DNA of 64,000 bases from Cyclobacterium plantarum (lineage in GTDB: Bacteria; Bacteroidota; Bacteroidia; Cytophagales; Cyclobacteriaceae): contig NZ_JAANYN010000009.1 in assembly GCF_011290685.1 (NCBI RefSeq), positions 124,001-188,000 of the forward strand. Direction: 5' to 3'. Each line of letters begins with the position of its first letter. Within the stretch, counting starts at the first letter, position 1. The translations under genes and the position numbers were made by a program. A model generated the notes under the pieces. The model did no database searches and was not told where the DNA came from. It saw only the letters and a list, made by a program, of their open reading frames with translations. Positions 22,014-64,000 of this stretch are shown one piece after another.

Positions 22014-22126
22014 TTTTTACTGTCCCTGAACGCTTCCATCTTTTTTTAAAAAAAAATTTGTAACAACCGTGTGAAGCGGGCGGTGTTGGGGATTACAAGT
22101 GAATACAAACCATAACTTAAGAAACC

Positions 22127-22546
22127 ATGAAAAAATCTGCAGTAACATTCGCCTTTGTTCTTTTCTTTTCCGTGTTCATGACTGAGACATCCTTCGGCCA
22201 GGTTATAAAATTGAAGACCACCGCCCTGGCAATGAAATTCAAGCATGACGACAACCGATGGAGCGACTGGTCCGATTGGGAACGTACTTCTGTCTTGATC
22301 GTCGCCGATGACAACCGCATCACCGTTTATTCCAAAGAAAAACAGGTATACGATATCATCGAAAACGAAGGAAAAAAAACCGATAGCGACGGCGACGATG
22401 TTTGGTCGTACTTCTGCATCAATGAAGATGGCGCCAGGTGCCGCTTGCGACTGATTAAGCGCAACAGCCGAAACGGTGAAGCCCAGCTATATGTCGATTT
22501 CAACGACATGAAATGGGTCTACAACATCGAATTACTGGAAACCTAA
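22127..22546 (+). CDS. small secreted protein of unknown function (copy 1)
   Basis: 139 residues with a clear signal peptide (MKKSAVTFAFVLFFSVF, cleavage near SFGQ). The mature part is hydrophilic and looks all-beta: LKTTALAMKFK, DDNRWSDWSDWE, VLIVADDNRITVYSKEKQV, CRLRLIKRNS, QLYVDFNDMKWVYNIELL. Two cysteines (CINEDGARC) could form a disulfide. A close paralogue lies at 55236-55655, also immediately upstream of an array gene. I do not recognise the family. Its repeated placement suggests a partner, ligand or substrate of the downstream exported protease; this is inference. Confidence 0.8.
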   Translation: MKKSAVTFAFVLFFSVFMTETSFGQVIKLKTTALAMKFKHDDNRWSDWSDWERTSVLIVADDNRITVYSKEKQVYDIIENEGKKTDSDGDDVWSYFCINEDGARCRLRLIKRNSRNGEAQLYVDFNDMKWVYNIELLET

Positions 22547-22560
22547 GATCCTAAGATGTG

Positions 22561-22587
22561 GCAAAGCAAGGGACCCTCTTGCTTTGC
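22561..22587 (+). terminator. hairpin after the small secreted protein gene
   Basis: GCAAAGCAAG and CTTGCTTTGC form a perfect 10-bp stem with a 7-nt loop, 14 nt after the stop. No U-run follows, so it is either a weak terminator or a 3'-end stabiliser. It is conserved at 55671-55697. Confidence 0.55.
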
Positions 22588-22718
22588 CGCATTCCCATCC
22601 AAAAACTTCGAAATTCTCCAGCGGATTTGTCAACAGGCCGCAAACCGAACCGGTTGCTTTTTTGAATACAGCCAACCGCCTATAATTAAAAAAATACCAG
22701 GATCTCCGCAGGAATACC

Positions 22719-22749
22719 TTGCGCTGCATGCGAAGGATTTGTAAATTAG
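22719..22749 (+). promoter_or_regulatory. conserved array promoter (upstream of 22773 gene)
   Basis: TTG (22719-22721), 20-nt spacer, TAAATTAG (22742-22749), then 23 nt to the ATG. It is one of six near-identical elements preceding the ankyrin-type genes. The -7 box differs from the TAnnTTTG consensus by one base (A for the third T) in all six. Confidence 0.75.
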
Positions 22750-22772
22750 GCAGATAGAAATACAGACCTACC

Positions 22773-25700
22773 ATGTACCGACTTCTTTTCTTACTTTTCT
22801 GCACCCTACTATCGAGTACTGCCATTAACGCCCAGACCCCACTACTCGATGCCATCAAAGCCGGAGACCTGCCCCAGGTGCAGGAACTGGTCGAAGCCGG
22901 GGCAGATGTAAACGCACTGGATACAAACGGTGCCACCCCGCTGATGTGGGCAGCCTATCGGGCCGATCTGGAAATGGTGAAATGGCTGGTCGATTACGGA
23001 GCCGACCCATTTTTAAAAAAAGGGGTCATTTACCTAAATGAAGAAAAAACCGCCTACAACGGCAACCTCACGGGCATAGCCGCAGGAGAAGGCAAGTTGG
23101 AGATGCTCCGCTACCTGATAGAAGATGTGGAGATTGAGGTGGACGACAGGGAATACAACCCCGAAACCGGCCAGGAAGATGGCTGGACAGCCGCAGAATG
23201 GGCGGATAACAGGGTACAGGGTGAGGTGATGGCCTATCTGGAAAAAAATGCCAACCTCAGTTTTTTGTCGGATACGCTCAGGAATGTCAATGGAGATCTT
23301 AAAAATGGAGCCGACTTCTATGCTTCATCAGCTTATCAGGCCTCCATGCTACTTTTTGAAAAGCATATCGCAACACTCAAGGAAACCTTTGGCGCAACAG
23401 ATACCACAACCTATGCGAAATTTCTTTATGCATTGGCAAACGCAGCTAAGCAATCCGGTAATTACGAGGGGGCAGAGCAATACTATTTGGAGCTTACGGT
23501 CCTCTGGAAATCAGTCCTGGGCGAAGACCACCCCGACTATGCCAACTCCCTGAACAGCCTGGCCTTGCTGTATAAAAGTATGGGCCGATACGCCGAGGCA
23601 GAGCCGCTCTACAAGCATTCCATGGAAATCAGGAAAGAACAACTGGGCGAAGACCATCCCAACTATGCCACCTCCTTGAACAACCTGGCATCGCTATATG
23701 AAAGCATGGGCAGGTACGACGAGGCTGAGCCGCTGTATGTGGAGGCGATTGGAGTATTGAAAGCGCAACTCGGTGAAGACCACCCCTCCTACGCCACTTC
23801 CCTGAACAACCTGGCCGTGTTGTATGAAAGCATGGGACGGTACGCCGAAGCAGAGCCGCTTTACCTACAAGCCATGGAAATCAGGAAAGTACAACTGGGC
23901 GAAGACCATCCCGACTATGCCACTTCCCTGAACAACCTGGCATCGCTGTACGAAAGCATGGGCCGGTACGATGAAGCAGAGCCGCTGTATGTGGAGGCCA
24001 TTGGAGTATTGAAAGCGCAACTCGGTGAAGACCACCCCTCCTATGCCACCTCCCTAAACGGCCTAGCAAGGCTGTACGAAAGCATGGGCCGGTACGACGA
24101 GGCTGAACCGCTCTACTCGCAGGGTTTGGAAATATATAAAGCCCAACTCGGAGAAGACCATCCCTACTATGCCACCTCTCTACACAACTTGGCGGGGCTG
24201 TATGAAAGCATGGGCCGGTACGACGAGGTTGAACCGCTCTACACGCAGGGTTTGGAAATATATAAAGCCCAACTCGGAGAAAACCATCCCAACTATGCCA
24301 GCTCCTTGGACAACCTGGCGGACCTTTATAAAAGCCTGGGCCGGTACGACGAGGCTGAACCGCTGTACATGCAGGGTTTGGAAATATATAAAGCCCAACT
24401 CGGCGAAGACCACCCCTTCTATGCCACCTCCCTAAACAACCTAGCATGGCTGTACGAAAGCATGGGCCGGTACAACGAGGCAGAGCCGCTGTATCTCCAA
24501 AACTTGGAAATAACGAAAAAAGCACTGGGGGAAAACCACCCCTACTATGCCACCTCCCTGCACAACCTGGCATCGCTGTATAAAAGCATGGGGCGGTATG
24601 CAGAGGCAGAGCGGCTGTATCTCCAAGACTTGGAAATAACGAAAAAAGCACTGGGGGAAAACCACCCCTACTACGGCATATCGCTCTACCAACTGGCCAG
24701 CTTGTACAACAAGACCTATCGATTAGAAAATGTGGATTCTTTGCTTTTGCAATCTGCTTCCGTCATCGAAAAAGCATTGGGTCGGGAACACCCACGATAC
24801 ACCAACATAGTCTATCAAAAGGCCCTACTCGCCCGAAAAAGAAATCAATTTACGGAAGCAGAGGTGCTGTTTGCTACGGTTTTGGAAAAAAGGGCAGGTA
24901 TTTTTGGGAAAACCCATCCTGATTATGCACTTGCCCTGGGGGAGCTGGGCAAACTGTATTTAGCCACCAATCAGCACCAAAAAGCGGAGCAAGCCTATCG
25001 GAAAGCCAATGAAACACTAAAGGCCATCGTGGGAGTGCAGCATCCACGATACTTGCAAAACCTCGGCGAACTGGCGGGCATGTATCAGAAAACGTTTCAG
25101 TACGATAAAGCAGGCACCGTCTACCAGGAAATACAGCGCATATCCGAGGGGATACTGAAAAGCGGTGAAACAGACCGTGAGCAGGTGCCCCGCAACTTGC
25201 AGGCATCGGGCGAAGAGGCGCTTAAAACAGCCAATACCCATCCTTTTATCAATATCTACTCCCCCGAACCATTGCAACGCAACGAGCGGGGCGTCAACCG
25301 GCTTGCCGCCGCCAATTTTACCATTAAGGGTTTTGCCACTGCTGCCCATGGCATAAAACAGTTGCAGGTAAATGGGCAGGAAGTATCCGTTTTCCCAGAT
25401 GGGGTCTGGCAGTACCCGATTCAACTAAAAGAAGGCGAGAACCAGGTGCTCATCAAAGCCGTGGCATATTCAAGGGATGAAACAATCGATACCCTGCTCC
25501 TACATTACGAAAACAAACAGGTAATCCGCTCAGAAGCACCCCGTCGCTTTCTATTGTCCATCGGCATCAATGAGTACAACTTCGAAAGCTGGGAAACGCT
25601 CAATATGCCCGTAAAAGATGCCCGCGATCTGATTGGGGCGCTGGTAGAAAAGTACGATATCACCGATGTAGATACGCTATTCAACCAATTAGCGTCCTTT

Positions 25701-26237
25701 GCCAATGTGCGTGACCGGCTGAAGCACCTTATCGGTGCCACCCGACCGCAGGATGAGGTCATTATCTTTTTTGCCGGGCACGGTGAGTACGACGAAGATT
25801 TTGATGAGGATGGCAAATGGATTTTAGCCAATGGCCGCCTCGGTAATGCCAGCCTAGCAGCGGTTATCGAAAAAATGGAAGCAAAACATGTACTGGTGCT
25901 GGCCGATGCCTGTTTCTCGGGTTCATTTTACCTGAAGCGTGGCGAAGGGCAGGAAGCTGCCGAGGCACGCAATCAACGGAGATCCCGCTGGGTGCTGGCT
26001 AGTGGTAGTATGGAAACGGTGCTGGATCAGATGCCGGGCAAACAAAACAGCCCTTTCGCCTGGCACCTGATTGACTTCCTGCAAAAAGCTGAAGGCGATG
26101 TTCCGCTTTCCACGCTCCGCGACCACCTGGAAACCCAAGTGCCAAAATATACCGATCAGCAGCCCGTTTCAGGACCCATCCGGAGTGATGATGGCGGCGA
26201 ATTCATCTTCCGCCAAAAAACGAAATTAATACCCTGA
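22773..26237 (+). CDS. exported ankyrin-TPR-caspase (C14) protein
   Basis: 1154 residues. Signal peptide 1-21 (AINAQ); about three ankyrin repeats to ~150; then about 13 kinesin-light-chain-type TPRs of 42 residues (LGEDHPDYATSLNNLA type), the last three diverged. A beta-sandwich linker follows at ~815-915 (FTIKGFATAAHGIKQLQVNG), then a caspase-like domain at ~925-1150. The catalytic dyad is H1003 in FAGHGEYDE and C1047 in LADACFSGSF. The C-terminal ~480 residues are nearly the same as in the protein at 51033-53048, while the N-terminal half matches the ankyrin-CHAT proteins. Likely substrates are proteins cut after a basic or acidic residue, as in this family; specificity is not visible. First gene of the array, with its own conserved promoter. 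Confidence 0.93.
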   Translation: MYRLLFLLFCTLLSSTAINAQTPLLDAIKAGDLPQVQELVEAGADVNALDTNGATPLMWAAYRADLEMVKWLVDYGADPFLKKGVIYLNEEKTAYNGNLTGIAAGEGKLEMLRYLIEDVEIEVDDREYNPETGQEDGWTAAEWADNRVQGEVMAYLEKNANLSFLSDTLRNVNGDLKNGADFYASSAYQASMLLFEKHIATLKETFGATDTTTYAKFLYALANAAKQSGNYEGAEQYYLELTVLWKSVLGEDHPDYANSLNSLALLYKSMGRYAEAEPLYKHSMEIRKEQLGEDHPNYATSLNNLASLYESMGRYDEAEPLYVEAIGVLKAQLGEDHPSYATSLNNLAVLYESMGRYAEAEPLYLQAMEIRKVQLGEDHPDYATSLNNLASLYESMGRYDEAEPLYVEAIGVLKAQLGEDHPSYATSLNGLARLYESMGRYDEAEPLYSQGLEIYKAQLGEDHPYYATSLHNLAGLYESMGRYDEVEPLYTQGLEIYKAQLGENHPNYASSLDNLADLYKSLGRYDEAEPLYMQGLEIYKAQLGEDHPFYATSLNNLAWLYESMGRYNEAEPLYLQNLEITKKALGENHPYYATSLHNLASLYKSMGRYAEAERLYLQDLEITKKALGENHPYYGISLYQLASLYNKTYRLENVDSLLLQSASVIEKALGREHPRYTNIVYQKALLARKRNQFTEAEVLFATVLEKRAGIFGKTHPDYALALGELGKLYLATNQHQKAEQAYRKANETLKAIVGVQHPRYLQNLGELAGMYQKTFQYDKAGTVYQEIQRISEGILKSGETDREQVPRNLQASGEEALKTANTHPFINIYSPEPLQRNERGVNRLAAANFTIKGFATAAHGIKQLQVNGQEVSVFPDGVWQYPIQLKEGENQVLIKAVAYSRDETIDTLLLHYENKQVIRSEAPRRFLLSIGINEYNFESWETLNMPVKDARDLIGALVEKYDITDVDTLFNQLASFANVRDRLKHLIGATRPQDEVIIFFAGHGEYDEDFDEDGKWILANGRLGNASLAAVIEKMEAKHVLVLADACFSGSFYLKRGEGQEAAEARNQRRSRWVLASGSMETVLDQMPGKQNSPFAWHLIDFLQKAEGDVPLSTLRDHLETQVPKYTDQQPVSGPIRSDDGGEFIFRQKTKLIP

Positions 26238-26650: not shown

Positions 26651-27880
26651 ATGAATTTTTTTGACAATTTTGATGGTGATGATTTAAAGGATGCGATCAA
26701 CAAACAACTAATTGATCGGTTTTGTACCCTTTCCGAGACGGAGCAGCAAGAAAACGTATTTGATGAATTACACAAAAAAAACATGCTGGTGCCTGCCGTA
26801 TACCTGGACAAAGTCTTGACCAAAGCACATCGGGAGTGGGAAAACAAAGAAATTAAAAAGAGGCTATTTTCGATAATACCTAGTGTTAACCGCCGAATTA
26901 AACGAGAGTTTTTTGAAGTATGTCAAACCAGGAAAGAGAATTTGACGAGCAAAAATAAATTTTATTTCCTTCGGAAAAGCTTTCGGATCTGGGTACGGGA
27001 AAATGCCTTAAATGTGCTAAACAAGGACACCATTACGCAAATTATTGATACGGTGCAAGGTGAAAAAGAGCCTGTCTTTGGTTTGCTCATGCAATACAAC
27101 GATGAATGGCCCTATGGTTTCCTCGCGGGTAAATCCCAGCCCCAGGATGTATCCCGGGAGCTCATATCAACATCCTGGGAACGCACCGAAGAAGACCTAC
27201 TAGCTGCTGAGGCGACGGAACAACTTAACCAAATCTGCTGGGTGCATTTTACGATCTGGTTTAAGAGCAAATTAAATTGGGGATTGAGAAATCGGGATTA
27301 TGCGGTAAGAGATGAGGCGGATGTCGACAGCCAAGCCATCAGCAACCGTTTGACAGATGAAGCGGCGGACGAACCGCTGGAAGAGGACTCCTTGCGGCTG
27401 ATCCCCTTGTTTGGCGTCTTCCTCCTGAGAGAAGAGCAGTACACCTGTATCAATAAAAGGTACCGGTTTGACGACCCTGATAACGATGAAATGCGAACCT
27501 ATCAAGAGGTGGCCGATGCATTGTGCATCACGGTGAGGGACGTAACCACACATCTTTTTAGGGGGCACGAACGCCTGAGGACAATGGTGAAAAATGCGTA
27601 TCGCGGTTCGGTAGCCGTCCCCACCGATAAAGAAGCCTACAAAACTTTGATGGATATATGTAACATCGAAGCGAAAAACGCTGATGATGAAAAGCATTGG
27701 ATAGCGCCCTGTATGCGCATACTGGGGCAGGATGAGCGAACCGTACTGGAAAAGCTTATTGCGAACGAACCTCAAAGGGAACAACTGGATCAAAACGAGA
27801 CAAAAGTTTTTGAAAGTGCAACAAGTAAGTTGTCGTCCATGATTTTGGGAAGAAGGGCCTACCCTTATCTATCCATTTAA
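26651..27880 (+). CDS. sigma-region-4-like transcription factor
   Basis: 409 residues. Residues ~284-313 read TYQEVADALCITVRDVTTHL plus RGHERLRTMV, a sigma-70 region 4.2 helix-turn-helix, preceded by RLIPLFGVFLLREEQY, which matches the usual run-up in ECF sigma factors. The N-terminal ~240 residues are mostly helical and show no standard region 2, so this is an atypical, enlarged sigma-like protein. The membrane protein that follows after 3 nt has the topology of an anti-sigma factor. Position inside the array suggests it controls the array genes; the six repeated promoters are obvious candidate targets. It could alternatively be a plain DNA-binding protein. Confidence 0.7.
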   Translation: MNFFDNFDGDDLKDAINKQLIDRFCTLSETEQQENVFDELHKKNMLVPAVYLDKVLTKAHREWENKEIKKRLFSIIPSVNRRIKREFFEVCQTRKENLTSKNKFYFLRKSFRIWVRENALNVLNKDTITQIIDTVQGEKEPVFGLLMQYNDEWPYGFLAGKSQPQDVSRELISTSWERTEEDLLAAEATEQLNQICWVHFTIWFKSKLNWGLRNRDYAVRDEADVDSQAISNRLTDEAADEPLEEDSLRLIPLFGVFLLREEQYTCINKRYRFDDPDNDEMRTYQEVADALCITVRDVTTHLFRGHERLRTMVKNAYRGSVAVPTDKEAYKTLMDICNIEAKNADDEKHWIAPCMRILGQDERTVLEKLIANEPQREQLDQNETKVFESATSKLSSMILGRRAYPYLSI

Positions 27881-27883
27881 CCT

Positions 27884-29050
27884 ATGATTGCTGCCATGCA
27901 ACACCTGTTACTTACATCCGATATATTGATCGCCTATGTTAAAAATCGCCTGAACCGCCAACAGGTCCTTCTCCTGGAAGAGGCCTTGCCCCAGCAGCCG
28001 GAGGCCTACGAAGAGGTGCTCTGGATACGGGACATGCTGGAGCAGGGAGAGTTGGATGCTTACCTGGAAATGCAAGGCTGGGAGGACGCAATCGATTACG
28101 AAGCGCTATTTGACGCCAATCTCAAACAAGCTGAGTCACTATTGGAGATCAGCACCGAGGAGATGGTGGCTTATGTGAAGGGCAGGCTACCGAAAGAAGA
28201 GGTATTGCGCTTTGAGGAAAAGCTCCCGCATGATAAGGAGCATCAGGACACACTTTCCTTTTTACAAGATTTACATAAGGAGGGGATGTTGGAAGAAGGT
28301 CTGGTTACCATGGAGAAAGGATGGACGCTGGATGGAGGAGACGGAAAGGAAGAGACGGACGAAGAAAAACCAACGGGCTCGACTGGCGCGGAACGCAATC
28401 CCTCATTCTCCTTTCTACAAATAGCCGCAACCGTGGTAGGAATTCTTATAACCGTAGGGGTCCTATTCAATATCATTATACCACAATTCAGTTCGGACAA
28501 ACCGACAGTTCCTGAACGACCGGTTCGCGGGGGCCATGTAGCTGACCAAGCCTTGGAGAAGGCATTGGCAACGAATAGTTTTGATACACCTGGTAAAAAG
28601 CTGCGGGTAGCAGCCTATTTGCTCGATTATACCCAACGCCCAATGGGGCCATTCACCCAAAAGGTTTTGTGGGAAAACTATTACCTGCTACCAGCACAGG
28701 AGATGTCCGGTTTGAGAAACTTTCAGCCAGTCGAACACATGGCCTTTCTGGAACAATGGCAAGATGCGAACCAACTGCCCATCACTAATGAATGGATGAC
28801 GGTGGACTGGAAAGACGGAGAACTACAAGTTTACCACCCTGAGGGACCAATCATCGGCTCCGTGGCGGTAGATTCTCCCAAACAATTGGGCTTGGAAATT
28901 TCGGGTAAAGGCTTGTGGGTACTCACAAACGAGGAAGCACTCCTACGCTTGCGTACACCCGAGGGTATACGGGATTGGTTGCGCTCAGCGGAAGCGGATT
29001 TTATCCCGGCCCTGGACGAACAAGAAAGGCAGGCAGCGATACCCAACTAA
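27884..29050 (+). CDS. single-pass membrane anti-sigma-like protein
   Basis: 388 residues. The cytoplasmic part holds two tandem copies of a helical motif, residues ~14-55 (LIAYVKNRLNRQQVLLLEEA) and ~94-137 (MVAYVKGRLPKEEVLRFEEK). This is followed by an acidic linker, one membrane helix at ~177-200 and a ~190-residue exported C-terminal domain (about 205-388). This is the layout of anti-sigma factors that read an extracytoplasmic signal. There is no zinc-binding HxxxCxxC motif, so it is not a ZAS-type anti-sigma; the duplicated AYVKxRL motif may be the sigma-binding unit. The start is 3 nt after the sigma-like gene's stop (a second Met is four codons in). Confidence 0.7.
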   Translation: MIAAMQHLLLTSDILIAYVKNRLNRQQVLLLEEALPQQPEAYEEVLWIRDMLEQGELDAYLEMQGWEDAIDYEALFDANLKQAESLLEISTEEMVAYVKGRLPKEEVLRFEEKLPHDKEHQDTLSFLQDLHKEGMLEEGLVTMEKGWTLDGGDGKEETDEEKPTGSTGAERNPSFSFLQIAATVVGILITVGVLFNIIIPQFSSDKPTVPERPVRGGHVADQALEKALATNSFDTPGKKLRVAAYLLDYTQRPMGPFTQKVLWENYYLLPAQEMSGLRNFQPVEHMAFLEQWQDANQLPITNEWMTVDWKDGELQVYHPEGPIIGSVAVDSPKQLGLEISGKGLWVLTNEEALLRLRTPEGIRDWLRSAEADFIPALDEQERQAAIPN

Positions 29051-29202: not shown

Positions 29203-32200
29203 ATGTACCGATTCCTCTTTTTACTCGTTTGCAGTTTAGTAACCACCACTGCCCTCCAGGCCCAATCCCCGTTCCTTGATGCCATCGGAGCCAGGGACCT
29301 GCCCCAGGTGCAGCAACTGGTAAAAGCGGGGGCAGATGTAAACGCCCTGGATGAAAACGGGGCCACCCCGTTGATGTGGGCGGCCTACCAGGCCGATTTG
29401 GAAATGGTGAAATGGCTGGTCGATAACGGCGCCGACCCTTTTCAAAAAAAAGGTGCCATTTTTCTAAATGAAGAAAAAACGGCTTACTACGGCAACCTCA
29501 CGGGAATAGCAGCCGGAGAAGGCAAACTGGAAATGCTTCAATTCCTTATAGGTGAAGTCGGCATCGCAGTAGATGATAAAGAATACAACCCCGAAACGGG
29601 CCAGGAAGATGGCTGGACAGCCGCACAATGGGCGGATAGTGGGGTACATGGTGATGTGATGGCCTATTTGGAGAAAAGAGCAGATCTCACCTTTTTGTCG
29701 GATACGCTCCGGAGGACCAATGTGGATATCACTAAGGGAGCGACTTTTTATAAAGAATCTAGTTATAAAGCCTCCATGATACTGTTTGAAAAACATATTA
29801 CTTTACTTAAGGAAACCTTTGGTGCAACGGATACCTCAAACTATGCTACGTTTCTCTATGTATTGGCAAACGCCTGCAAACAATCCGGTAATTACGGAGA
29901 GGCAGAGCAATATTATTCAGAGCTTACGGTCCTCTGGAAGTCAGTCCTGGGCGAAGACCACCCCTCCTATGCCATCAGCCTACATAACCTAGCAGTGCTA
30001 TACGAACAAATGGGCCGGTACGCTGAAGCAGAGCCGCTCGAACGGCAGATCTTGGAAATCTTTAGGGTCCAACTGGGGGAAGACCATCCCAACTATGCCA
30101 TCGCCCTGAACAACCTGGCAATTACATATGCAGAAATGGGCCGCTACGCAGAGGCAGAGCCGCTGCACACGCAGGCACTCCAAATCCACAAACAACAACT
30201 GGGCGAAGACCACCCCGAGTATGCTAGGTCCCTCAACAACCTGGCACTTGCGTACAAAGTCATGGGCCGCTACGCCGAGGCAGAGCCACTATACAAGCAG
30301 GCCCTGGAAATCCGGAAAGAGCAACTGGGCAAAGACCACCCTGACTATGCCAACTCCCTGGACAACCTGGCATTGCTATATGAAAAAATGGGCCGCTACG
30401 CCGAGGCAGAGCCGCGCATGCGCAAGGCCAGCGAAATATGGAAAGTGCAACTGGGGGCAGACCACCCCGAATATGCCAGCTCCCTGAACAACTTGGCCGG
30501 GTTGTACCAAACCATGGGCCGGTACGCCGAGGCAGAGCCACTGTATGCGCAAGCCATGGGAATCAGGAAAACCCAAATGGGCGAAAACCACCCCGACTAT
30601 GCCAGCTCTCTGAACAACCTGGCCGGGTTGTACCAAACCATGGGCCGGTACCCCGAGGCAGAGCCACTGTATGCGCAAGCCATGGAAATCAGGAAAACTC
30701 AACTGGGCGAAAACCACCCCTCTTATGCCGCCTCCCTGAACAACCTGGCCGGGTTGTACCAAACCATGGGCCGGTACGCCGAGGCAGAGCCACTGTATGC
30801 GCAAGCCATGGGAATCTGGAAAGCGAAACTGGGCGAAAACCACCCCGACTATGCCGCCTCCCTGAACAACCTGGCAAACCTGTACGAAGATTTGGGCAGG
30901 TACACCCAGGCAGAGCCGCTATACACGCAAGCTATGGAAATCATGAAAACGAAACTGGGGGAATACCACCCAGACTATGGCCTCTCCCTGAACAATCTGG
31001 CAAAACTATACCAACGCATGGGCATGTTTACTGAGGCTGAGCCGCTGTACAAACAGTCCATGGGAATCCAAAAAGAGCAACTGGGCGAAGACCACCCCGA
31101 CTATGCCAACTCCCTGAACAACTTGTCGGAGCTGTTTAAAAACATGGGCCGTTACGCCGAGGCAGAGCCGCTACTGTTGCAAAGCCAACAGGTGTACCTC
31201 CATCAACTTCGGACTATTTTCCCCACACTGTCGGAGAAGGAAAAGGAGCAGTTCCTCCATACCTTCAATTTCTCTTTTGAGTTTTTCAACACTTTCACTT
31301 CTAAACGCCGAGGCGATAACCCAGAAATCACCGCCCCCCAGTATGACAACGCCCTGCTGCTGAAAGGGCTGCTGCTAAAAAGCAGCTCGCAGATGCGTGA
31401 CCGCATACTCGCCGGCGGGGATACCACCGCCATCCGCCTGTTCGGGGACTGGCAGACACTGAAACGGCAGTGGCTGCAAGAATCAGATATACCCAAAAGC
31501 GAACGGGAAAAGGGGGGCATCGCCCCCGAGGCCACCTTGGAAAAAGCCAATACACTGGAAAAAGAGCTTTCCCTTCTTTCGGAGGCCTTTGCCGAGGCCA
31601 CCGATACCGTGCGCACTACCTGGAGGGAAGTACAGCAAGAGCTGCAGCAGGGAGATGCCGCCATCGAACTGGTCAGGTACAGGTGGCATGATAAAAAATG
31701 GACGGACACCGTCCATTACGCCGCCCTTATCGTTACCCCCGAGATGCAAGATCATCCCCACCTTGTGCTGCTGAAAAACGGTAACGAATTGGAGGAGCTG
31801 GGAGCGCAAAGTTATCAGTCCGCTTTTGCCACGAGGGGTGCAAGCCGGGTCGCGGATGGCGATAACCCCATCCCCGCCGATTCGCTCTATGCCTACTTCT
31901 GGCAACCCATACAGAAAGCGCTCGATTCCCTGGGCGGGGCCGGGAAAGTCTACCTCTCCCCTGATGGGGTCTACCATACACTTAATCTGCAGACCCTCAA
32001 GAACCTAGAAACAGGCAAATACCTCCTGGAGACCCTCGACATCGAACGGGTCGGCTCCACCAGGGACCTGGTCAAAAAGAAAAAACAGCAGGTCCCCTAC
32101 AATAACGCCATACTGGCGGGCTATCCCAGCTACCCCGCTTCCCCCGAAGCCGTGGCCGATGCCTTGCAGCGTTACCAGCAGGGGCAGGCAATGCCTGTGC

Positions 32201-39515: not shown

Positions 39516-39540
39516 TGTTTACAGCTATAAACCTTCACGC

Positions 39541-51007: not shown

Positions 51008-51032
51008 TGTTTACAGAATTAAACCTTTACGC

Positions 51033-55235: not shown

Positions 55236-55655
55236 ATGAAAAAATCTGCAGTAACATTCGCCTTTGTTCTTTTCTTTTTCGTGTTCATGACTGAGATATC
55301 CTTCGGCCAGGTTGTAAAATTGAAGTCCACCGCCCTCGCAATGAAAGTCAAGAATGATGACAACCGATGGAGTGACTGGTCCGATTGGGAAAGTACTTCT
55401 GTCTTGATCGTAGCCGATGATAGCCGCATCACCGTATATTCGAAAGAAAAACAGGTATACGATATCATCGAAAACGAAGGAAAAAAAACCGATAGCGATG
55501 GCGACGATGTTTTGACCTTCTCCTGTATCAACGAAGACGGTGCCAGGTGCCGCTTGCGACTGATTAAACGCAACAGCCAAAACGGTGAAGCCCAGCTATA
55601 TGTCGATTTCAACGACATGAAATGGGTATACAACCTCGAGTTACTGGAAACCTAA
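55236..55655 (+). CDS. small secreted protein of unknown function (copy 2)
   Basis: 139 residues, from MKKSAVTFAFVLFFFVF with a signal peptide ending near SFGQ. It matches the protein at 22127-22546 at most positions, with changes such as KFKHDD to KVKNDD and WSYFCI to LTFSCI; the two cysteines are kept. The frame is open 19 codons upstream, but the start shared with the paralogue is chosen. Retention of an intact frame after duplication argues that it is under selection. Confidence 0.8.
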   Translation: MKKSAVTFAFVLFFFVFMTEISFGQVVKLKSTALAMKVKNDDNRWSDWSDWESTSVLIVADDSRITVYSKEKQVYDIIENEGKKTDSDGDDVLTFSCINEDGARCRLRLIKRNSQNGEAQLYVDFNDMKWVYNLELLET

Positions 55656-55853: not shown

Positions 55854-55876
55854 GTAGTTAGAAAATCCGGATTACC

Positions 55877-58800
55877 ATGCACCGACTCCTTTTTATACTT
55901 GTCTGCACTATACTATCGACTACTGTCCTTCCCGCCCAAACCCCACTACTCGATGCCATCAAAGACAAGGATCTGCCGGAAGTGCAGCTACTGCTGGAAG
56001 CGGGGGCGGATGTAAACGCCCTGGATAAGAACGGTGCGACCCCGCTTATGTGGGCGGCCTATCGGGCCGATCTGGAAATGGTACAATGGCTGGTAGATTA
56101 CGGAGCCGACCCCTTCCTGAAAAAAGGGGTGATTTACCTGAACGAAGAAAAAACGGCATCCTACGGCAACCTCACGGGCTTAGCCGCAGGGGAAGGCAAA
56201 CTGGAACTGCTCCGCTACTTGATCGAGGAAGTGGGGATTGCTGTAGACGACAGGGAATACAACCCCGAAACCGGCCAGGAAGATGGTTGGACAGCGGCGC
56301 AATGGGCAGATAGCAGGGCACAAAGTGAGGTGATGGCCTACCTGGAAAATAATGCGGACCTCAGCTTCCTGGCAGACACGTTACGCGATATCAATTTAGA
56401 TATCAGGAACGGGAACACCTTTTATGCCGCTTCAAGTTACAGGGCCTCCATGGTACTGTACGGGAAACATATCAGAACCCTTAAGGAAACTTTTGGTGCA
56501 ACGGATACCACAACCTATTCGAAGTTCCTTTTTGCACTGGCACACTCTTGTAAACAATCGGGTTATTACGAGAAAGCGGAGCCATACTATTCCGAGCTGA
56601 CCGCGCTCTGGAAATCGGTTGTGGGGAAAAACCACCCCGACTATGCCAGCTCCCTAAACAACTTGGCGAATCTGTACAAAAGCATGGGCCGATACGCAGA
56701 GGCCGAACCGCTGTACACCCAGGCCCTGGAAATCAGGAAGGCACAACTGGGGGAAGACCACCCTTCTTACGCCACCTCCCTATACAATCTGGCCGGGCTA
56801 TATAAAAGCATGGAACGTTACGCCGATACCGAACCGCTGTACCTTCGGTGCATAGAAATCGAAAAAGTACAACTCGGTGAAGAACACCCCGACTATGCCA
56901 CCTCCCTAAACAACTTGGCGGAACTGTACAAAAACATGGGTCGCTACACCGAGGCAGAACCGCTATACACGCAGGCCATGGAAATCTATAAAGTACAACT
57001 CGGCGATGACCACCCTTCTTACGCCACCTCCCTATACAATCTGGCCGGGCTATATAAAAGCATGGAACGTTACATCGACGCTGAGCCGATGTACCTCAAA
57101 ACCATAGAAATCAGGAAAACAAAACTCGGTGATGACCATCCCGACTATGCCATCTCCCTGAACAACTTGGCGGAGCTGTACAAAAACATGGGCCGCTACG
57201 ACGAGGCAGTGCCGCTGTACACCCAGGCCCTGGAAATCAGAAAAAACCAACTTGGCGACAACCACCCCATCTATGCCAGCTCCCTTACCGACCTCGCTAA
57301 TCTCTATTATAGCATGGACCGCTATACAGAGGCAGAGCCCCTATACACGTAGGCCACGGGAATCTATAAGGTAAAACTCGGCGATGAGCACCCTTCTTAC
57401 GCCACCTCCCTGAACAACCTGGCAACGCTGTATTACACGATGGACCGTTACGAAGAGGCAGAGCCGCTAATGCTTAAGGCCGTCGAAATTAGGAAAGTGC
57501 AACTGGGCGAAGGCAACCCTGAATATGCCACCTCCCTGAACAACCTGGCAACGATGTACGCTGAGATGGGCCGCTATGCCGATGCCGAGCCGTTGTACCT
57601 ACAGTCCACCGAAATCAGGAAGGCGCAACTGGGGGAAGACCATCCCGACTATGCCGCCTCCTTGAACAATCTGGCAACACTGTATTACACGATGGACCGT
57701 TACGAAGAGGCAGAGCCGCTGATTCTTAAGGCCGTCGAAATTAGGAAAGCGAAACCGGGCGAAGACCACCCCGACTATGCCACCTCCCTGAACAACCTCG
57801 CAACGCTATTTAAAAGCATGGGCCGGTACCACGAGGCTGAGCCGCTGTACAAACAATCCATGGGAATCCGAAAAACGCAACTGCGCGAAGACCATCCCTC
57901 CTATGCCCAATCCCTTAACGACCTGGCTTTGCTATACCAAATCATGGGCCGGTACACCGAGGCAGAGCCGCTGTATGCGCAAGCCATAGAAATCGATAAA
58001 GTGCAACTGGGAGAAGATCACCGAAATTTTGCCACCTCCTTAAACAACCTGGCAATGCTCTATGAAGACATGGGCCGGTACGACGAGGCTGAGACGCTAT
58101 ACACGCAAGCTCTGGACACTAGGAAAACGCAACTGGGAGAAAACCACCCCGACTACGCCAACTCCCTGAATAACCTGGCCTTGCTTTACAAAAGCATGCG
58201 CCGGTACGGCCATGCTGAGTCCCTGTGCGAACAGGCCCTGGAAATCCGAAAAGCGCAGCTTGGCGAATACCATCCCGACTATGCCACTTCCCTGAACAAC
58301 CTAGCCTTGCTGTACCGAAGCATGGGCCGGTACGACGAGGCAGAGCCGCTGTACACGCAGGCCAGGGGGATCTATAAAACGAAACTAGGCGAGGATCACC
58401 CTAACTATGCCACCTCCCTTAATAACCTGGCTTTACTGTACAAAAACATGGGCCGCTACAACGAGGCAGAGCCGCTTCTGTTGCAAGGCCAGCAAGTGTA
58501 CCTCCACCAACTCCGGAACGTTTTTCCCAGCCTTTCCGAGAAGGAAAAGGAGCAGTTCCTAAATACTTTTAATTTCAATTTCGAGCTATTCCACTCCTTT
58601 GCCGGGAAGAGGCACGGGAGCAACCCCGCCATCACCGCCACTCAGTACGACAATGCCTTGTTGCTGAAAGGACTGCTGCTTCAAAGTAGTTCGCAGATGC
58701 GGGAACGCATCCTTGCCGGCGGGGATACCACCGCAATCTGTTTGTTCGAAGACTGGCAGGCGCTCAAACGGCAGTGGCTCAAGGAGTCGGAAATACCCAA

Positions 58801-60259
58801 AAGCGAACGGGAACAGGTGGGCATCGTCCCAGACGCTACCCTGGAAAAAGCCAATACGCTGGAAAAAGAACTTTCCCGCCGTTCGGAGGCCTTCGCCGAG
58901 GCGATAGACACGGTGCGCACCACCTGGTGGGAGGTGCAACAAGAGCTGAAGCCCGGCGAATCCGCTATCGAACTGATCCGATACACCTGGCACGATAAAA
59001 ATTGGACGGACACGGTGCATTACGCCGCCCTGATCGTTACCCCCGATACGAAAGGGCATCCCCACCTTGTGCTGCTGGAGAACGGCAACGAACTGGAAGC
59101 GCAGGGTGCGCAAAGCTACAAGTCCGCTTTTGCCACGCGGGGCGCAAGCCGGGTCGCGGGAGGTGACAATCCTATTCCCGCCGATTCGCTCTATGCCTAC
59201 TTCTGGCAGCCCATCCAGACCGCGCTAGATTCCCTGGGCGGGGCCGGAAAAGTCTACCTCTCTCCCGACGGGGTGTACCATACACTTAACCTGCAGACCC
59301 TTAAAAACCCCGAAACAGGTCGATACCTCCTGGAAACCCTCGACATTGAACGGGTAGGCTCCACCAAAAACCTGGTTAAAAAGAAAAAACAGCCGGCCCC
59401 CAACAACAACGCCGTACTGGCGGGTTATCCATCCTACCCCGCTTCCCCCGAAGCCGTGGCTTCCGCCCAGAAGCGGTTCCAGCAGGGACAGGCAGCACGG
59501 ATACTCACCGCCTCACTGGGCAGCAGCGGTTACGGCACCTACCAAACCTACCGCGCCATCGATGCCAGCCGGAGCAGCATCAGTCCCCTTCCTGGCACCC
59601 TTACTGAGGTAGAGCAGGTGGCTTCCATCCTCGATGGGGAGGGCATACCTACCCTGGCCCTGTTGGAAAATGCCGCTTCCGAGGATCTGCTAAAAAAAGT
59701 GAAAAGCCCCCGCATCCTCCATATCGCCACCCACGGGTTCTTCGAGCCCCAAAGGGAACAGCAAGCCGAAGGCCTCAACCGAGAGATGCTGATGAGCGGG
59801 CTGGGGCAGGAGACCGTTACCGAGAACCCTTACCTTCGCTGCGGCCTCTACCTGGCCGGGGCGGAGACCACGCTGAAGAACCGCGGCAACTTGGACTTCC
59901 AGCGTCCAGCTGGGCAGGAGGACGGCATCCTTACGGCCTACGAAGCCACCCTGCTTGACCTGCGGGGCACCGAGCTGGTGGTACTATCCGCCTGTGAGAC
60001 GGGGCTAGGCGTCACCAAAAATGGGGAAGGTGTTTACGGCCTGCAGCGCGCCTTTCAGATAGCCGGAGCCGAAACGGTTATCTTCTCCCTCTGGAAGATC
60101 GCCGACCAACAGACCCAGGAGATGATGGGGCTATTCTACAAAAACTGGCTACAAAAAGACATGACCAAACGCCAGGCATTCAAAGCCGCCCAACAGACCA
60201 TTAAGGAGAAATACGAAGACCCCTACTTCTGGGGGGCTTTTGTGATGATTGGGGGGTGA
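55877..60259 (+). pseudogene. exported ankyrin-TPR-CHAT gene interrupted by an in-frame TAG
   Basis: A single frame of 1460 codons broken only by TAG at 57350-57352 (codon 492), where the repeat consensus has CAG in LYTQAMG; the adjacent ATG of that motif is also changed to ACG. Before the stop: signal peptide (MHRLLFILV, LPAQ), ankyrin repeats, six TPRs, giving a 491-residue secreted fragment with no enzyme. After it: about nine more TPRs, linker and an intact CHAT domain (H1286 in HIATHGFFE, C1373 in VLSACETGLG). The downstream part could only be made by internal initiation (first Met 57440, no signal peptide), readthrough or suppression. It may be a recent pseudogene or a sequencing error; no other damage is visible. 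Confidence 0.8.
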
Positions 60260-60284
60260 TGTTTACAGAATTAAACCTTTACGC

Positions 60285-60311: not shown

Positions 60312-60318
60312 GAATGCC

Positions 60319-60349
60319 TTGCAGGGCAATCGAAAGGTTTCTAAATTAG
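60319..60349 (+). promoter_or_regulatory. conserved array promoter (upstream of 60373 gene)
   Basis: TTG (60319-60321), 20-nt spacer, TAAATTAG (60342-60349), 23 nt to the ATG. Confidence 0.75.
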
Positions 60350-60372
60350 GTACTTAGAACTTCCGACCTACC

Positions 60373-63300
60373 ATGTACCGACTCCTTTTTTTTCTTGTTT
60401 TTAGTGTATTAGCCACGACTTCACTCCGAGCCCAAACTCCGCTCCTCAATGCCATCAAAGCCGGACACCTGCCCCAGGTCCAGGAACTGGTGGAAGCGGG
60501 GTCGGATGTAAACGCCCTGGATGCGAACGGCGCGACCCCGCTTATGTGGGCGGCCTATCGGGCCGATCTGGAACTGGTACAATGGCTGGTCGATAACGGC
60601 GCCGACCCTTTCCTGAAAAAAGGTGTGATTTATCTGAACGAAGAAAAAACCGCGTACTATGGCAACCTGACGGGAATTGCAGCTGGAGAAGGCAAGCTAG
60701 ATATGCTCCGTTACCTAATTGAAGAGGTGGGCATTGCCGTGGATGACAAGGAATACAACCTCGAAACCGGCCATGAAGACGGCTGGACAGCAGCGCAATG
60801 GGCAAACAACTCGAATGAACAGGCCATATTGGTTTTTTTGAAAGGTGAAAATGCCGATATGGCATTTTTAAATAGCTACTACAATTTAGCAACCAAATCA
60901 TCTCGGCTTAGCCAAGAGGGCCGCTATGAAGAGGCACTGGTATATGCGGAAAAATCAGTTATTGCTGCCAGAGATGAATTCGGTATGGATCATCCCAGCT
61001 TTGCTACCTCCCTCAACAACTTGGCACTGGTTTATAATAGTTTAGAACGCTACAAGGATGCAGAGCCGCTTTTCCGGAGGGCTACCGAGACCTATAAACA
61101 GCAACTGGGGGAAGATCACCCATTCTATGTCCAAGCCCTCGAAAACTTGGCAGGATCGTTACAAAGTATTGGCCGCTATGCGGAGGCCGAGCCGCTCTAT
61201 ATAAAGTACTCCCAGATTTACAAGCAACAACTTGGGGAAGACCATCTAGACTATGGCAGATCCCTCAAAAACTTGGCGGAGCTATATGTGGACATGCGTA
61301 GCTATGAGGAGGCCGAGCCACTTTATCAACAGGTCTTGAAAATATTAGAAAACCAACTGGGCGAATCGCACCCCTATTATACTGTTTCTCTCAACAATTT
61401 GGCAGAACTATATAAAGATATGGGGTACTACCGGGAGGCAGAAACCCTCTATCGTAAGATCACCGAAATTTATAAGCGAGAAATGGGGGAAGATAATCCC
61501 GACTATGCCAAGTCAATCAACAACTTAGCTATCTTTTTATATGAAAACATGGGCCGATACGGGGAGGCAGAACAGCTAATGCATAATGCCACCGAAATCA
61601 CGAAGCACCAACTGGGGGAAAATCACTTCGATTATGCAACCTCCCTAAACAACCTGGCTTTGCTGTACCGAAGCATGGGCCGCTACGCAGGGATCGAAAA
61701 GCTCTTTAGTAAGGCCATCGAAATTTACAAGCGGGAACTCGGGGAAGACCACCCCGAGTATGCCACACTCCTCAACAACTTAGCTCTTTTCTTGTGCGAA
61801 AACATGGGCAACTGCAGGAAGGCAGAGCCACTCATGCACCAGGCCACAGAAATTATGGAGAAGCAACTTGGGGAAGACCATCCCGACTTTGCCAACTCCC
61901 TAAACAATCTGGCGTTGCTTTACGGAAGAATGGGCCGCTATGCAGGGGGCGAGGCGCTCTATCTTGAGGCCATCGAAATTTACAAGCGGGAACTGGGAGA
62001 AGATCATCCCGATTATGCCAACTCCCTCAATAACTTGGCATATCTCTACAATAGTATGGGTCGCTACAGGGAGGCAGAACAGCTCTATCGCAATGCCACC
62101 GAAATCATAAAGCAGGAACTGGGGAAAGAAAATATATATTATGCCACCTCTTTAGGCAACCTTGCAGATTTGTACCAGAATATGGGACGCTATAAGGAAG
62201 GTGAACTCCTCTTCCTACAAGGATTACAAATCAGAAAAAAACAATTTGGTGAAAAACACATATATTATGCCACCGGTCTAGGCGAACTTGCAGGGTTGTA
62301 CCGGAAAATGGGCCGCTATGGGGAAGGTGAACTCCTCTTACTACAAGCATTGCAAATCAGAAAAAAACAATTTGGTGAAAAACACATATATTATGCTAGA
62401 TACTTAGCTAATTTGGCAACCCTTTATATAGACAGAGGGAGCTACAGAGATGCGGAACAACTCTTTCTCCAATCCATGGAAATCAGTAAAAAACAATTGG
62501 GGGAAGACCATCCTAACTATGCTACTTCATTGGCAAACATTGCAGTGCTATATGAAATTATGGGCCGATACGCCGAGGCAGAGCCGCTTTACATGCAGGC
62601 CATGGAAATCAAGGAGGCGAAACTGGGCGAAGACCACCCAGGCTATGCCACCTCCCTTAACAACCTGGCTGCCCTGTATAAAAAAATGGGACGATATTTC
62701 GAGTCCGAAATCTTATTATTAAAAACCAAGGAAAGCTTTAAAAAAACACTGGGGAAAGACCACCCAGACTATGCCACAGCTCTGAACAACTTAGCAGAAC
62801 TATATCGTAGCTTGGGTCGCTACGAGGAAGCCGAACCCCTTTACATCAATTCCATGCAAATTGGGAAGCAGCAACTTGGGGAGGATCACCCCAACTATGC
62901 CCAAAACCTGAACAACCTAGCCTTGCTTTATAGTAGCATGGGCCAGTATAAGAAAGCAGAGCCACTTTACACACAGGCCACCGAAATCATGAAAGCGCAA
63001 CTTGGGGAAGACCACCCCGACTATGCCCAATCCCTGAACAACTTGGCAGGATTGTACCGAAGCAAAGGTCGGTACGCCGAGGCTGAGCCGATGTACACGC
63101 AGGCCATGGGAATCCAAAAAGCGCAACTGGGCGAAGACCACCCTGACTATGCCAGCTCACTGAATAACCTGGCTTTACTGTACAAAAACATGGGCCGATA
63201 CAACGAGGCAGAGCCACTTCTGTTGAAAGGCCAACAAGTGTACCTCCACCAACTCCAGACCGTTTTCCCCAGCCTTTCCGAGAAGGAAAAGGAGCAGTTC

Positions 63301-64000
63301 CTCAATACCTTCAATTACTACTTTGAACATTTCCACTCCTTTGCCGGGAAGCGGCAAGAGGGAAACCCCGCCATCACCGCCACTCAGTTTGACAATACCC
63401 TGTTGCTGAAAGGGCTTTTGGTCCAAAGCAGCGCACAAATGCAGGAACGCATCCTCGCCAGTGGGGATACCACCGCTATCCGTCTGTTCGAAGACTGGCA
63501 GGCGCTGAAACGGCAGTGGCTCAAAGAATCGGAAATACCCAAAAGCGAACGGGAACAGGCGGGCATTGCCCCGGATGCTACCTTGGCTCAGGCCAATACG
63601 CTGGAAAAAGAACTTTCCCGCCGTTCGGAGGCCTTTGCCGAGGCGACAGACACGGTGCGCACTACCTGGCAGGGTATACAACAAGAGCTGAAGCAGGGCG
63701 AGGCCGCCATCGAATTGATCCGATACAGGTGGCACAATAAAAACTGGACGGATACGGTCCATTACGCCGCCCTGATCGTTACGCCCAAGATGAAAAAGCA
63801 TCCCCACCTGGTGCTGCTGGAAAACGGCACCAAACTGGAAGAGCGGGGCGCACAGAGCTACCAGTCCGCTTTTGCCACGCGGGGCGCAAGCCGGGTGGCG
63901 GATGGCGATAATCCCATCCCCGCCGATTCGCTCTATGCCTATTTCTGGCAGCCCATTCAGGAAGCACTCGATTCTCTGGGCGGAGCCGGGAAAGTCTACC
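60373..64000 (+). CDS. exported ankyrin-TPR-CHAT protease, partial (runs off the window)
   Basis: Open for 1209 codons from ATG at 60373 to the window end, in frame throughout. Signal peptide (MYRLLFFLVFSVLATTSLRA), ankyrin repeats to ~150, then, unlike the other ankyrin-type proteins, the capping repeat of the MLKK type (QEGRYEEALVYAEKSVIAAR), about 18 TPRs, the linker (HQLQTVFPSLSEKEKEQF) and the start of the CHAT domain (ALDSLGGAGKVY at the edge). The catalytic His and Cys would lie beyond the window. It has the longest TPR block here and its middle repeats (~61000-62500) are diverged and lower in GC, whereas the last repeats and the CHAT part resemble the neighbours. A chimaera of the two gene types. 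Confidence 0.9.
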   Translation, partial: MYRLLFFLVFSVLATTSLRAQTPLLNAIKAGHLPQVQELVEAGSDVNALDANGATPLMWAAYRADLELVQWLVDNGADPFLKKGVIYLNEEKTAYYGNLTGIAAGEGKLDMLRYLIEEVGIAVDDKEYNLETGHEDGWTAAQWANNSNEQAILVFLKGENADMAFLNSYYNLATKSSRLSQEGRYEEALVYAEKSVIAARDEFGMDHPSFATSLNNLALVYNSLERYKDAEPLFRRATETYKQQLGEDHPFYVQALENLAGSLQSIGRYAEAEPLYIKYSQIYKQQLGEDHLDYGRSLKNLAELYVDMRSYEEAEPLYQQVLKILENQLGESHPYYTVSLNNLAELYKDMGYYREAETLYRKITEIYKREMGEDNPDYAKSINNLAIFLYENMGRYGEAEQLMHNATEITKHQLGENHFDYATSLNNLALLYRSMGRYAGIEKLFSKAIEIYKRELGEDHPEYATLLNNLALFLCENMGNCRKAEPLMHQATEIMEKQLGEDHPDFANSLNNLALLYGRMGRYAGGEALYLEAIEIYKRELGEDHPDYANSLNNLAYLYNSMGRYREAEQLYRNATEIIKQELGKENIYYATSLGNLADLYQNMGRYKEGELLFLQGLQIRKKQFGEKHIYYATGLGELAGLYRKMGRYGEGELLLLQALQIRKKQFGEKHIYYARYLANLATLYIDRGSYRDAEQLFLQSMEISKKQLGEDHPNYATSLANIAVLYEIMGRYAEAEPLYMQAMEIKEAKLGEDHPGYATSLNNLAALYKKMGRYFESEILLLKTKESFKKTLGKDHPDYATALNNLAELYRSLGRYEEAEPLYINSMQIGKQQLGEDHPNYAQNLNNLALLYSSMGQYKKAEPLYTQATEIMKAQLGEDHPDYAQSLNNLAGLYRSKGRYAEAEPMYTQAMGIQKAQLGEDHPDYASSLNNLALLYKNMGRYNEAEPLLLKGQQVYLHQLQTVFPSLSEKEKEQFLNTFNYYFEHFHSFAGKRQEGNPAITATQFDNTLLLKGLLVQSSAQMQERILASGDTTAIRLFEDWQALKRQWLKESEIPKSEREQAGIAPDATLAQANTLEKELSRRSEAFAEATDTVRTTWQGIQQELKQGEAAIELIRYRWHNKNWTDTVHYAALIVTPKMKKHPHLVLLENGTKLEERGAQSYQSAFATRGASRVADGDNPIPADSLYAYFWQPIQEALDSLGGAGKVY

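Follow-up and report, generated by a model that had tools for sequence, protein, structure and literature searches.

An array of probably exported caspase-fold proteases in Cyclobacterium plantarum, and the linkage of anchored CHAT proteases to sigma/anti-sigma pairs in its relatives

Described CHAT protease systems and an array in Cyclobacterium plantarum

A precedent for a CHAT protease that acts on transcription is type III-E Craspase, in which the TPR-CHAT protease Csx29 cleaves Csx30, an inhibitor of an extracytoplasmic function (ECF)-like sigma factor (PMC10028731). Here, we describe a stretch of 64,000 nucleotides of the Cyclobacterium plantarum genome (the window; NZ_JAANYN010000009.1, positions 124,001 to 188,000, part of contig C37 in an assembly of 6.17 Mb and 37 contigs), which from position 22773 to its end holds an array of ten caspase-fold protease genes, seven of the CHAT and three of the C14 family. 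In relatives, exported and membrane-anchored CHAT proteases show a strong linkage to pairs of sigma and anti-sigma genes. That the array, which contains a sigma-like/anti-sigma-like pair of its own, works like these anchored systems is the best among several open readings.

Craspase resembles the systems of the relatives, and tentatively the array, in tying a TPR-CHAT protease to the inhibitor of an ECF-like sigma factor. It differs in its RAMP-domain protein, in the export signal present here and the membrane anchor present in the relatives, and in the inhibitor, which in the relatives is a membrane anti-sigma factor with a TPR domain predicted on the outer side. A CRISPR-linked Craspase was rejected as an explanation of the array, because no RAMP-domain protein (PF03787) is encoded in the host genome (0 matches, with 4 of 14 control genomes positive). 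The nearest solved sequences to an array CHAT domain are entries named CHAT domain protein, which we take to be Csx29, with a best E-value of 0.11 that is not significant; for one anchored CHAT, the NCBIfam model of Csx29 gave a hit (E=3e-4) that stays far under the cut-off of that model.

Other described systems share single features. DegS-RseA-sigmaE, cited in PMC10028731, and other site-1 regulated proteolysis of anti-sigma factors likewise combine a membrane anti-sigma factor, having a cytoplasmic N-terminus and a periplasmic domain, with a protease on the periplasmic side, but the protease here is a caspase-fold CHAT enzyme with its own TPR sensor and not a PDZ serine protease. The array proteases are CHAT and C14 enzymes, unlike the trypsin-like plus PDZ architecture of the DegS type. 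In CalpL-CalpT-CalpS the protease CalpL acts on an anti-sigma factor, and SAVED-CHAT belongs to a CHAT protease cascade; both are type III CRISPR effectors that cyclic oligoadenylates activate via a SAVED domain (PMC11229360), and no SAVED domain was found among the Pfam matches listed for the array sequences scanned. ECF54 sigma factors have CHAT and subtilase genes nearby, with proteolytic control proposed (PMC8999054), whereas a one-helix anti-sigma factor belongs to the unit considered here. Bacterial metacaspases and orthocaspases join the caspase fold to WD40 or TPR repeats, some with likely signal peptides; the part of PMC3501461 that was seen contains no sigma/anti-sigma link, and CHAT is not its subject.

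The reading that we favor is that the array is a diversified set of periplasmic receptors that double as proteases. Each protein would carry a signal for export, bind a protein or peptide through its repeat solenoid and act through a caspase-fold effector, either CHAT or C14. A bound ligand would switch the protease on, and the active protease would cleave the periplasmic juxtamembrane segment of a one-helix anti-sigma factor, in the array the product of 27884-29050 with the candidate site RPVR-GG. Cleavage would then free the sigma-like partner encoded at 26651-27880, giving a transcriptional output. We put the probability that the array works as such extracytoplasmic caspase-to-sigma signalling at roughly 0.4, and consider it likely that the same mechanism operates in the anchored three-gene systems of relatives. 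Ligand binding, the cleavage itself, the release of sigma and the use of this route by the unanchored array proteins are the steps that we infer.

Anchored CHAT proteases beside sigma and anti-sigma genes in relatives

A set consisting of a membrane-anchored TPR-CHAT protease, an ECF sigma factor and an anti-sigma factor, which is another arrangement of the array's parts, is conserved across genomes. The host itself has a CHAT gene of this kind on contig C34 (L013:8140-10944), encoding a signal sequence and a C-terminal membrane helix, and nearby lie a gene for a one-helix protein and an ECF sigma gene whose Sigma70_r2 match exceeds the Pfam cut-off. Thresholds throughout were set by the analyst. 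The order set comprised 60 loci picked by hand among the matches listed, few per genome (for example, 2 of the 46 CHAT matches of G025, a genome of the same order in which several of the matches are clustered), together with loci L013, L014 and L016, and contained 65 CHAT proteins longer than 600 amino acids. A sigma gene lay within 3 kb of 22 of the 30 anchored CHATs, in all 22 cases with a candidate transmembrane (TM) anti-sigma gene adjoining the sigma gene, compared with 5 of the 35 unanchored CHATs and 7 of 108 control genes. With L023 and L058, whose helix is borderline, reassigned, these numbers became 24/32 for anchored and 3/33 for unanchored CHATs (24/32 versus 7/108, Fisher p=3e-14).

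Two further samples agreed. Among 60 loci from the phylum, found via a profile of anchored CHATs, 34 of 58 anchored CHATs had a sigma gene within 3 kb (27 with a TM anti-sigma gene directly adjacent to it), as did one of the two other CHATs, both with borderline anchors. A scan of one subclade, the named-genome clade, gave 78 loci spanning Cyclobacterium roseum and Algoriphagus marincola to Winogradskyella, Maribacter and Dokdonia, and 72 of them had a sigma gene within 3 kb and an adjoining anti-sigma match; because both profiles were built mostly from sigma-linked CHATs, the phylum and named-clade counts are partly inherited and speak of conservation rather than of independent events. In the remaining six, L226 and L237 had the sigma gene at 3-4 kb, and L213, L228 and L233 sat at the ends of contigs, which left little or no upstream sequence.

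Counted in 1-kb slots, sigma genes of the named clade dropped from 69/152 within the first kb to 0/139 at a distance of 5-7 kb. For the order set the values were 24/120 at 0-2 kb, 0/57 at 2-3 kb and 7/276 at 3-9 kb, and for the phylum set 36/354 at 0-3 kb, 9/230 at 3-5 kb and 0/330 at 5-9 kb. The profile used to find sigma genes started from a CHAT-linked seed and was applied in the same way to CHAT and control loci. Gene order and strand of the three genes differ among loci. The identity of the partners was also seen in L188, a locus of Cyclobacterium roseum, where the sigma factor scored over the NCBIfam ECF cut-off and the anti-sigma protein matched NF052375 ('anti-sigma factor') at E=8e-4, under its cut-off.

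The positive-inside rule was used to orient both membrane proteins. Lysine and arginine were more numerous after than before the CHAT anchor in 151 of 168 proteins (reverse in 4), and more numerous before than after the anti-sigma helix in 117 of 126 (reverse in none). From this opposite charge bias, the CHAT domain is predicted to lie outside the inner membrane, on the face to which the C-terminal half of the anti-sigma factor, with its TPR domain, should also be exposed. A structural model of the anti-sigma factor, based on 65 named-clade sequences and with a predicted local distance difference test score (pLDDT) of 89.9, has N-terminal helices, a TM helix at residues 88-106, a loop at 120-132 and a C-terminal TPR domain.

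In the literature searched, CHAT, anti-sigma and ECF sigma were linked only in the Craspase paper (PMC10028731), CHAT and sigma factor occurred together in two Craspase papers and in two that contained each term once, and no link between caspases, anti-sigma factors and ECF sigma factors in Bacteroidetes was found. No account of the exported, anchored TPR-CHAT/sigma/anti-sigma unit was found in that literature, with subscription papers, including the ECF reclassification, outside its scope.

A different neighborhood was seen in host locus L014 (C35:137001-155000), where an anchored TPR-CHAT gene adjoins a subtilase gene and genes of type VI secretion, matching TssN at E=1e-64 and TssF at E=4e-6. 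L020 and L029 resemble L014 by gene sizes only.

Gene content of the array and its sigma-like/anti-sigma-like pair

The genes of the array and those lying between them are as follows, with coordinates in the window unless a locus is named.

22127..22546, plus strand: small exported-looking protein of 139 amino acids, copy 1 of two similar (open reading frame; fails the crude signal rule)
22773..26237, plus strand: gene A, signal peptide, ankyrin, TPR and C14 (Pfam; catalytic FFAGHG and ADACFSG)
26651..27880, plus strand: sigma-like protein of 409 amino acids, an orphan (sub-threshold Sigma70_r4)
27884..29050, plus strand: anti-sigma-like protein with one TM helix (match to a profile of CHAT-linked anti-sigma factors)
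29203..32955, plus strand: gene B, signal peptide, ankyrin, TPR and CHAT (Pfam)
32983..35646, plus strand: gene C, signal peptide, TPR and CHAT, MLKK-type N-terminus (CHAT at C37:158594 in the whole-genome search)
35760..39515, plus strand: gene D, signal peptide, ankyrin, TPR and CHAT (Pfam)
39505..43131, plus strand: gene E, signal peptide, TPR and CHAT, MLKK-type N-terminus (Pfam; signal rule); likely start 12 codons into the open reading frame
43191..46586, plus strand: gene F, signal peptide, WD40 propellers and C14 (Pfam)
47129..51007, plus strand: gene G, signal peptide, ankyrin, TPR and CHAT (Pfam)
50997..53048, plus strand: gene H, signal peptide, TPR and C14 (Pfam); N-terminus like that of E, C14 end like that of A
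53110..54285, plus strand: exported-looking protein without a family match, earlier labelled transglutaminase-like
54424..54972, plus strand: small exported-looking M48-like metalloprotease with HEVGHH (PF01435, 27.6 bits, cut-off 20.3; no NCBIfam match)
55236..55655, plus strand: small exported-looking protein, copy 2 (sequence; signal rule)
55877..60259, plus strand: gene I, signal peptide, ankyrin, TPR and CHAT, one in-frame stop at 57350-57352 (Pfam, sequence)
60373..64000, plus strand: gene J, signal peptide, ankyrin and TPR, with CHAT almost wholly past the window (complete in L011)
L011:3072-6392, past the window: gene K, TPR and CHAT, the eleventh protease

The array extends about 4.4 kb beyond the window, where gene J is completed and gene K added; in a whole-genome CHAT search, the CHAT domain of J lay at C37:187919-188998, with only about its first 80 bases inside the window, and the extended array held eight CHAT domains over cut-off. 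The sensor parts are ankyrin and TPR repeats in A, B, D, G, I and J, TPR repeats in C, E, H and K, and WD40 repeats in F. For the stop in gene I, either a genuine nonsense mutation or a misassembly of the repeats would be an explanation. For the protein at 22127..22546, nothing scored over a Pfam cut-off and no NCBIfam match was found. Upstream of the array, at 19867-21719, lies a pair resembling a histidine kinase and a LytTR-type regulator, judged by eye from the sequence. Beyond the window, on the minus strand, are a lipoprotein-like C14-DUF4384 protein (L011:6584-8761) and an HtrA/DegS-like protease (8797-10335), the latter matching the degP_htrA model at E=6e-52, under its curated cut-off.

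CHAT (PF12770) scored 189-206 bits (cut-off 24) in the six array proteins scanned whole or nearly so, and C14 (PF00656) scored 45-63 bits (cut-off 21.4) in A, F and H. The catalytic motifs HIATHG and LSACETG were present in all eight array CHAT proteins read, and AGHG and DAC in all three C14 proteins; these 11 proteins include two that were completed or found with genome sequence beyond the window. No STAND/NACHT NTPase domain was among the Pfam matches listed for the 11 array sequences scanned, a set outside which gene C falls, and a PADLOC scan of seven proteins gave nothing beyond generic matches to TPR, caspase and HEAT-ARM models.

The crude signal-peptide rule called all ten window protease genes exported, as it did 63 of 262 control proteins; gene K fails the rule, and its N-terminus looks like a signal peptide by eye. 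The rule requires A-x-A and misses many signals that look real by eye, calling 34 of 59, 24 of 60 and 35 of 79 CHATs. A plain hydrophobicity measure was afterwards used for the relatives, in whose loci 182 of 198 CHAT proteins longer than 800 amino acids had a strong N-terminal hydrophobic stretch, versus 109 of 262 controls (proteins of 150 amino acids or more). Export of the array proteases is likely on this basis.

What the original prediction observed, from the window alone, is confirmed with some corrections, and its interpretation is supported in part. Its ten caspase-fold genes were found, although one of its six complete CHAT genes, gene I, is split in the assembly by the in-frame stop. 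Its repeat solenoids and catalytic His/Cys motifs are borne out by Pfam and genome searches together with the sequence, the motifs in 11 of 11 proteins. Its placement of the proteases outside the cytoplasm agrees with the N-terminal stretches, which make export likely, and with the positive-inside rule in anchored relatives. Craspase agrees with its statement of a cytoplasmic site of action for the TPR-CHAT proteases described so far, but some bacterial metacaspases had already been noted to have likely signal peptides (PMC3501461). The sensing of phage, predators or competitors that it raised would be one possible role. The transglutaminase-like label of 53110 was not supported by Pfam (best E=0.24), NCBIfam or PADLOC. 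The sigma-like label of 26651..27880 has a Sigma70_r4 match behind it, though a sub-threshold one (E=0.0019).

The anti-sigma-like protein at 27884-29050 clearly matches the CHAT-linked anti-sigma factors, with 30.3 bits and E=1.7e-11 against their profile (a one-sequence search) and 91% in hhalign. The anti-sigma-type N-terminal motif occurs in two copies, the first weak (4.1 bits) and the second at 23.6 bits. A TM helix spans residues 183-199, and the juxtamembrane RPVR-GG lies 15 residues past the TM core; in relatives this distance is 17-29, so that the site here is two residues closer than any of theirs. The sigma-like protein had no NCBIfam match, and its AlphaFold2 model was uninformative (pLDDT 34.2). 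The array's own pair tentatively fits the anchored unit.

Juxtamembrane R-G/S, or a Met motif in its place, is a candidate cut site of the CHAT protease. In a first cut with a limit of 3 kb, R[GSNT] was present in 43 of 54 CHAT-linked anti-sigma factors (22.0 in shuffled sequences). With the limit then widened to 7.5 kb and FecR-like proteins excluded, both after the data had been seen, R[GS] was present in 46 of 66 anti-sigma factors (shuffled mean 8.8, maximum 22 in 2000) versus 14 of 46 other bitopic proteins (Fisher p=5e-5), and R-G alone in 38/66 versus 6/46. Allowing Asn or Thr as well gave 51 of 66, located 17-29 residues past the TM core; the rest were seven of Met type, one mixed and seven with neither. 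In the named clade, GLxTxM was found in 70 of 73 anti-sigma factors, the Met falling within the modelled loop. A search for CHAT columns that distinguish the Arg from the Met site types was confounded by phylogeny. Known members of this protease clan often cleave after Arg. In Craspase, the cleavage of Csx30 by Csx29 falls between residues 427 and 429 and is prevented when M427 is lost (PMC10028731).

Several observations weigh against carrying this mechanism over to the array, or against parts of the mechanism itself. The array CHATs stop at or just past the CHAT domain without a C-terminal anchor, and belong to a class that showed little sigma linkage in the order set; the route from array to sigma factor is therefore a reasoned extension. 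The Sigma70_r4 score of 26651-27880 is 18.1 bits, under the cut-off of 24.1, and single-protein queries of overlapping samples found no relative of it in 38 relatives, 389 order genomes and 394 phylum genomes. Sigma genes occurred five times in 20 control loci of 19.5 kb, or about once per 78 kb, so that one pair in a 40-kb array is unremarkable by position, and the probability of R[GS] at that place of 27884 by composition alone is 0.11. Among relatives, besides the way the profiles were built, L264 has an anchored CHAT for which no sigma gene was found, and L053:9402-12305 encodes an anchored CHAT without the catalytic Cys (SIHGTE replacing SACETG) in a 19.5-kb locus where no sigma gene was found. 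As to the site, R[GSNT] was also present in 14 of 20 anti-sigma factors classed as 'unlinked' at the first cut (shuffled 5.3), at least 10 of which have an anchored CHAT gene at a distance of 3.2-7.1 kb, and the later limit and exclusion were chosen with the data in view. R[GS] was found in neither of two FecR-like anti-sigma factors, a small control (the host genome has 21 FecR matches). The seven anti-sigma factors with neither motif count in the same direction. The named clade has no Arg excess (15/73, shuffled 14.1) and a Met motif instead, so there is no single universal site. The Arg motif is far over chance in these anti-sigma factors; its specificity for the CHAT link is tentative.

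A rival explanation, unlikely in our judgement, makes the array proteases secreted killers or self-executioners that would cut envelope proteins directly when they recognize non-self or damage, with cell death, fratricide or an attack on a predator or competitor as the outcome, the sigma-like pair being a bystander or a means of expression control. The unanchored state of the array CHATs suits such a role, for which an extracellular part in cell death or fratricide was suggested for bacterial caspase homologues (PMC3501461), and so do the lipoprotein-like C14, HtrA/DegS-like and M48-like proteases in or beside the array. However, no immunity gene or delivery system was recognized in the array, some of whose genes are without a family match, the PADLOC matches were generic in the seven proteins scanned, and the only strong recurrent partner of exported CHATs, in the anchored class, is the sigma/anti-sigma pair.

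Expansion of the array within one strain

The array is a strain-specific, recent expansion. The host genome has ten CHAT domains, eight of them in the array, compared with 0-3 in each of 11 congeners, and the ankyrin module, present here in six copies, was found in none of 195 other family genomes. Conservation of the array among relatives was rejected by these two results. The idea of the original prediction that the array and its sigma-like/anti-sigma-like pair form a conserved set falls with the ankyrin result and with the lack of any relative of the sigma-like gene in the genomes searched. The array CHATs form a single tight clade within the unanchored CHATs, and their copies are 77-88% identical in DNA. 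In a search of the phylum sample (246 other genomes, E <= 1e-60), the best outside match of an array CHAT was 43% identical over nearly the whole 440-residue query, with shorter matches of up to 52%.

CHAT and C14 effectors have been exchanged behind common sensor modules. The C14 ends of A and H are 89% identical over the last 330 residues. Gene A opens with an ankyrin module that is 71-82% identical to those of the CHAT genes, and the start of gene H resembles that of CHAT gene E (63% identity over 98 residues) and has no match to A. The gene pairs B-C, D-E and G-H follow one plan, an ankyrin-led gene and then an MLKK-type gene. All six ankyrin-led genes have a near-fixed block just 5' of the start, with divergence farther upstream. 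A 36-bp block from this region, searched with up to three mismatches, matches the genome at five sites, each in front of an ankyrin-led gene of the array, and a sixth, more diverged copy precedes gene A. It was rejected as a regulon-wide promoter motif, as all genome sites are within the array, and may be a duplicated ordinary promoter. The G+C content in 4-kb bins is 0.46-0.55 across the array versus 0.44-0.46 upstream.

Tandem Repeats Finder detected 126-bp repeat arrays in seven TPR genes and none in 32983 and 50997. In the 91 repeat units collected, each of 42 amino acids, most positions are almost fixed. Repeat positions 9, 12, 16, 19, 20 and 40, numbered 2, 5, 9, 12, 13 and 33 in the TPR, are among the 11 that vary most, and we take these six to belong to the seven ligand-facing TPR positions. 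By a hand calculation, six of seven such positions would fall within the top 11 of 42 with a chance of about 5e-4, a value to be read with the cut at 11 picked post hoc and with further exposed positions also varying. The pattern fits selection for changing ligands. Together with CHAT and C14 behind shared modules, the repeat variation supports in part the earlier proposal of many parallel sensors with one effector chemistry.

These results bear on two further explanations. In the first, which we rate as less likely than secreted killers, the array is a periplasmic proteolytic cascade for envelope maintenance or for the maturation of adhesins, secreted enzymes or the proteases themselves, with the solenoids choosing substrates. 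Some unanchored CHATs do lie near OmpA-domain propeller proteins (L047, L062, L071) or a giant leucine-rich repeat/immunoglobulin-like protein (L034), and CHATs have an M48-type gene close by in the window, in L016 (where its match exceeds the Pfam cut-off) and in L070 (where it stays just under it). A strain-specific array, with its ankyrin module confined to this genome in the family, is unlike a housekeeping pathway, however, and the variable repeat positions suggest changing ligands. The second, a tandem-duplication accident in which recombination multiplied repeat-rich genes of little selected function that are now decaying, accords with the 126-bp repeats, the high DNA identity of the CHAT copies, the in-frame stop and the low CHAT counts of the congeners, but is the least probable of all given intact catalytic motifs in every protein read, signals called in all ten window genes, a near-fixed promoter-proximal block with diverged sequence upstream, and repeat changes that cluster at certain positions.

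When 20 loci and own-genome flanks were compared, none of the families found next to unanchored CHATs occurred in more than 4 of them. Two unanchored CHAT loci from two genera, L016 and L070, have M48-type neighbors and a small exported-looking protein in common.

Returning to receptor-proteases that act on an anti-sigma factor, a wider version, proposed a little more tentatively than the reading of the array itself, is a widespread Bacteroidota pathway in which an exported, anchored TPR-CHAT protease would sense a periplasmic ligand and free an ECF sigma factor through a cut at a conserved juxtamembrane site in the TPR-bearing membrane anti-sigma factor, at Arg-Gly/Ser in most and at Met-Ser in one large clade, with the array as a shuffled receptor repertoire that feeds a similar switch. 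If this is true, sensor-repeat proteases of the caspase family act outside the bacterial cytoplasm as the receptor-proteases of a transcriptional switch, and the logic of Craspase, a CHAT protease that frees a sigma factor, would extend beyond CRISPR systems. For many sigma/anti-sigma pairs of the ECF type in Bacteroidota, a partner protease and the site of its cut would then be predicted, and the array would exemplify rapid receptor diversification within one strain.

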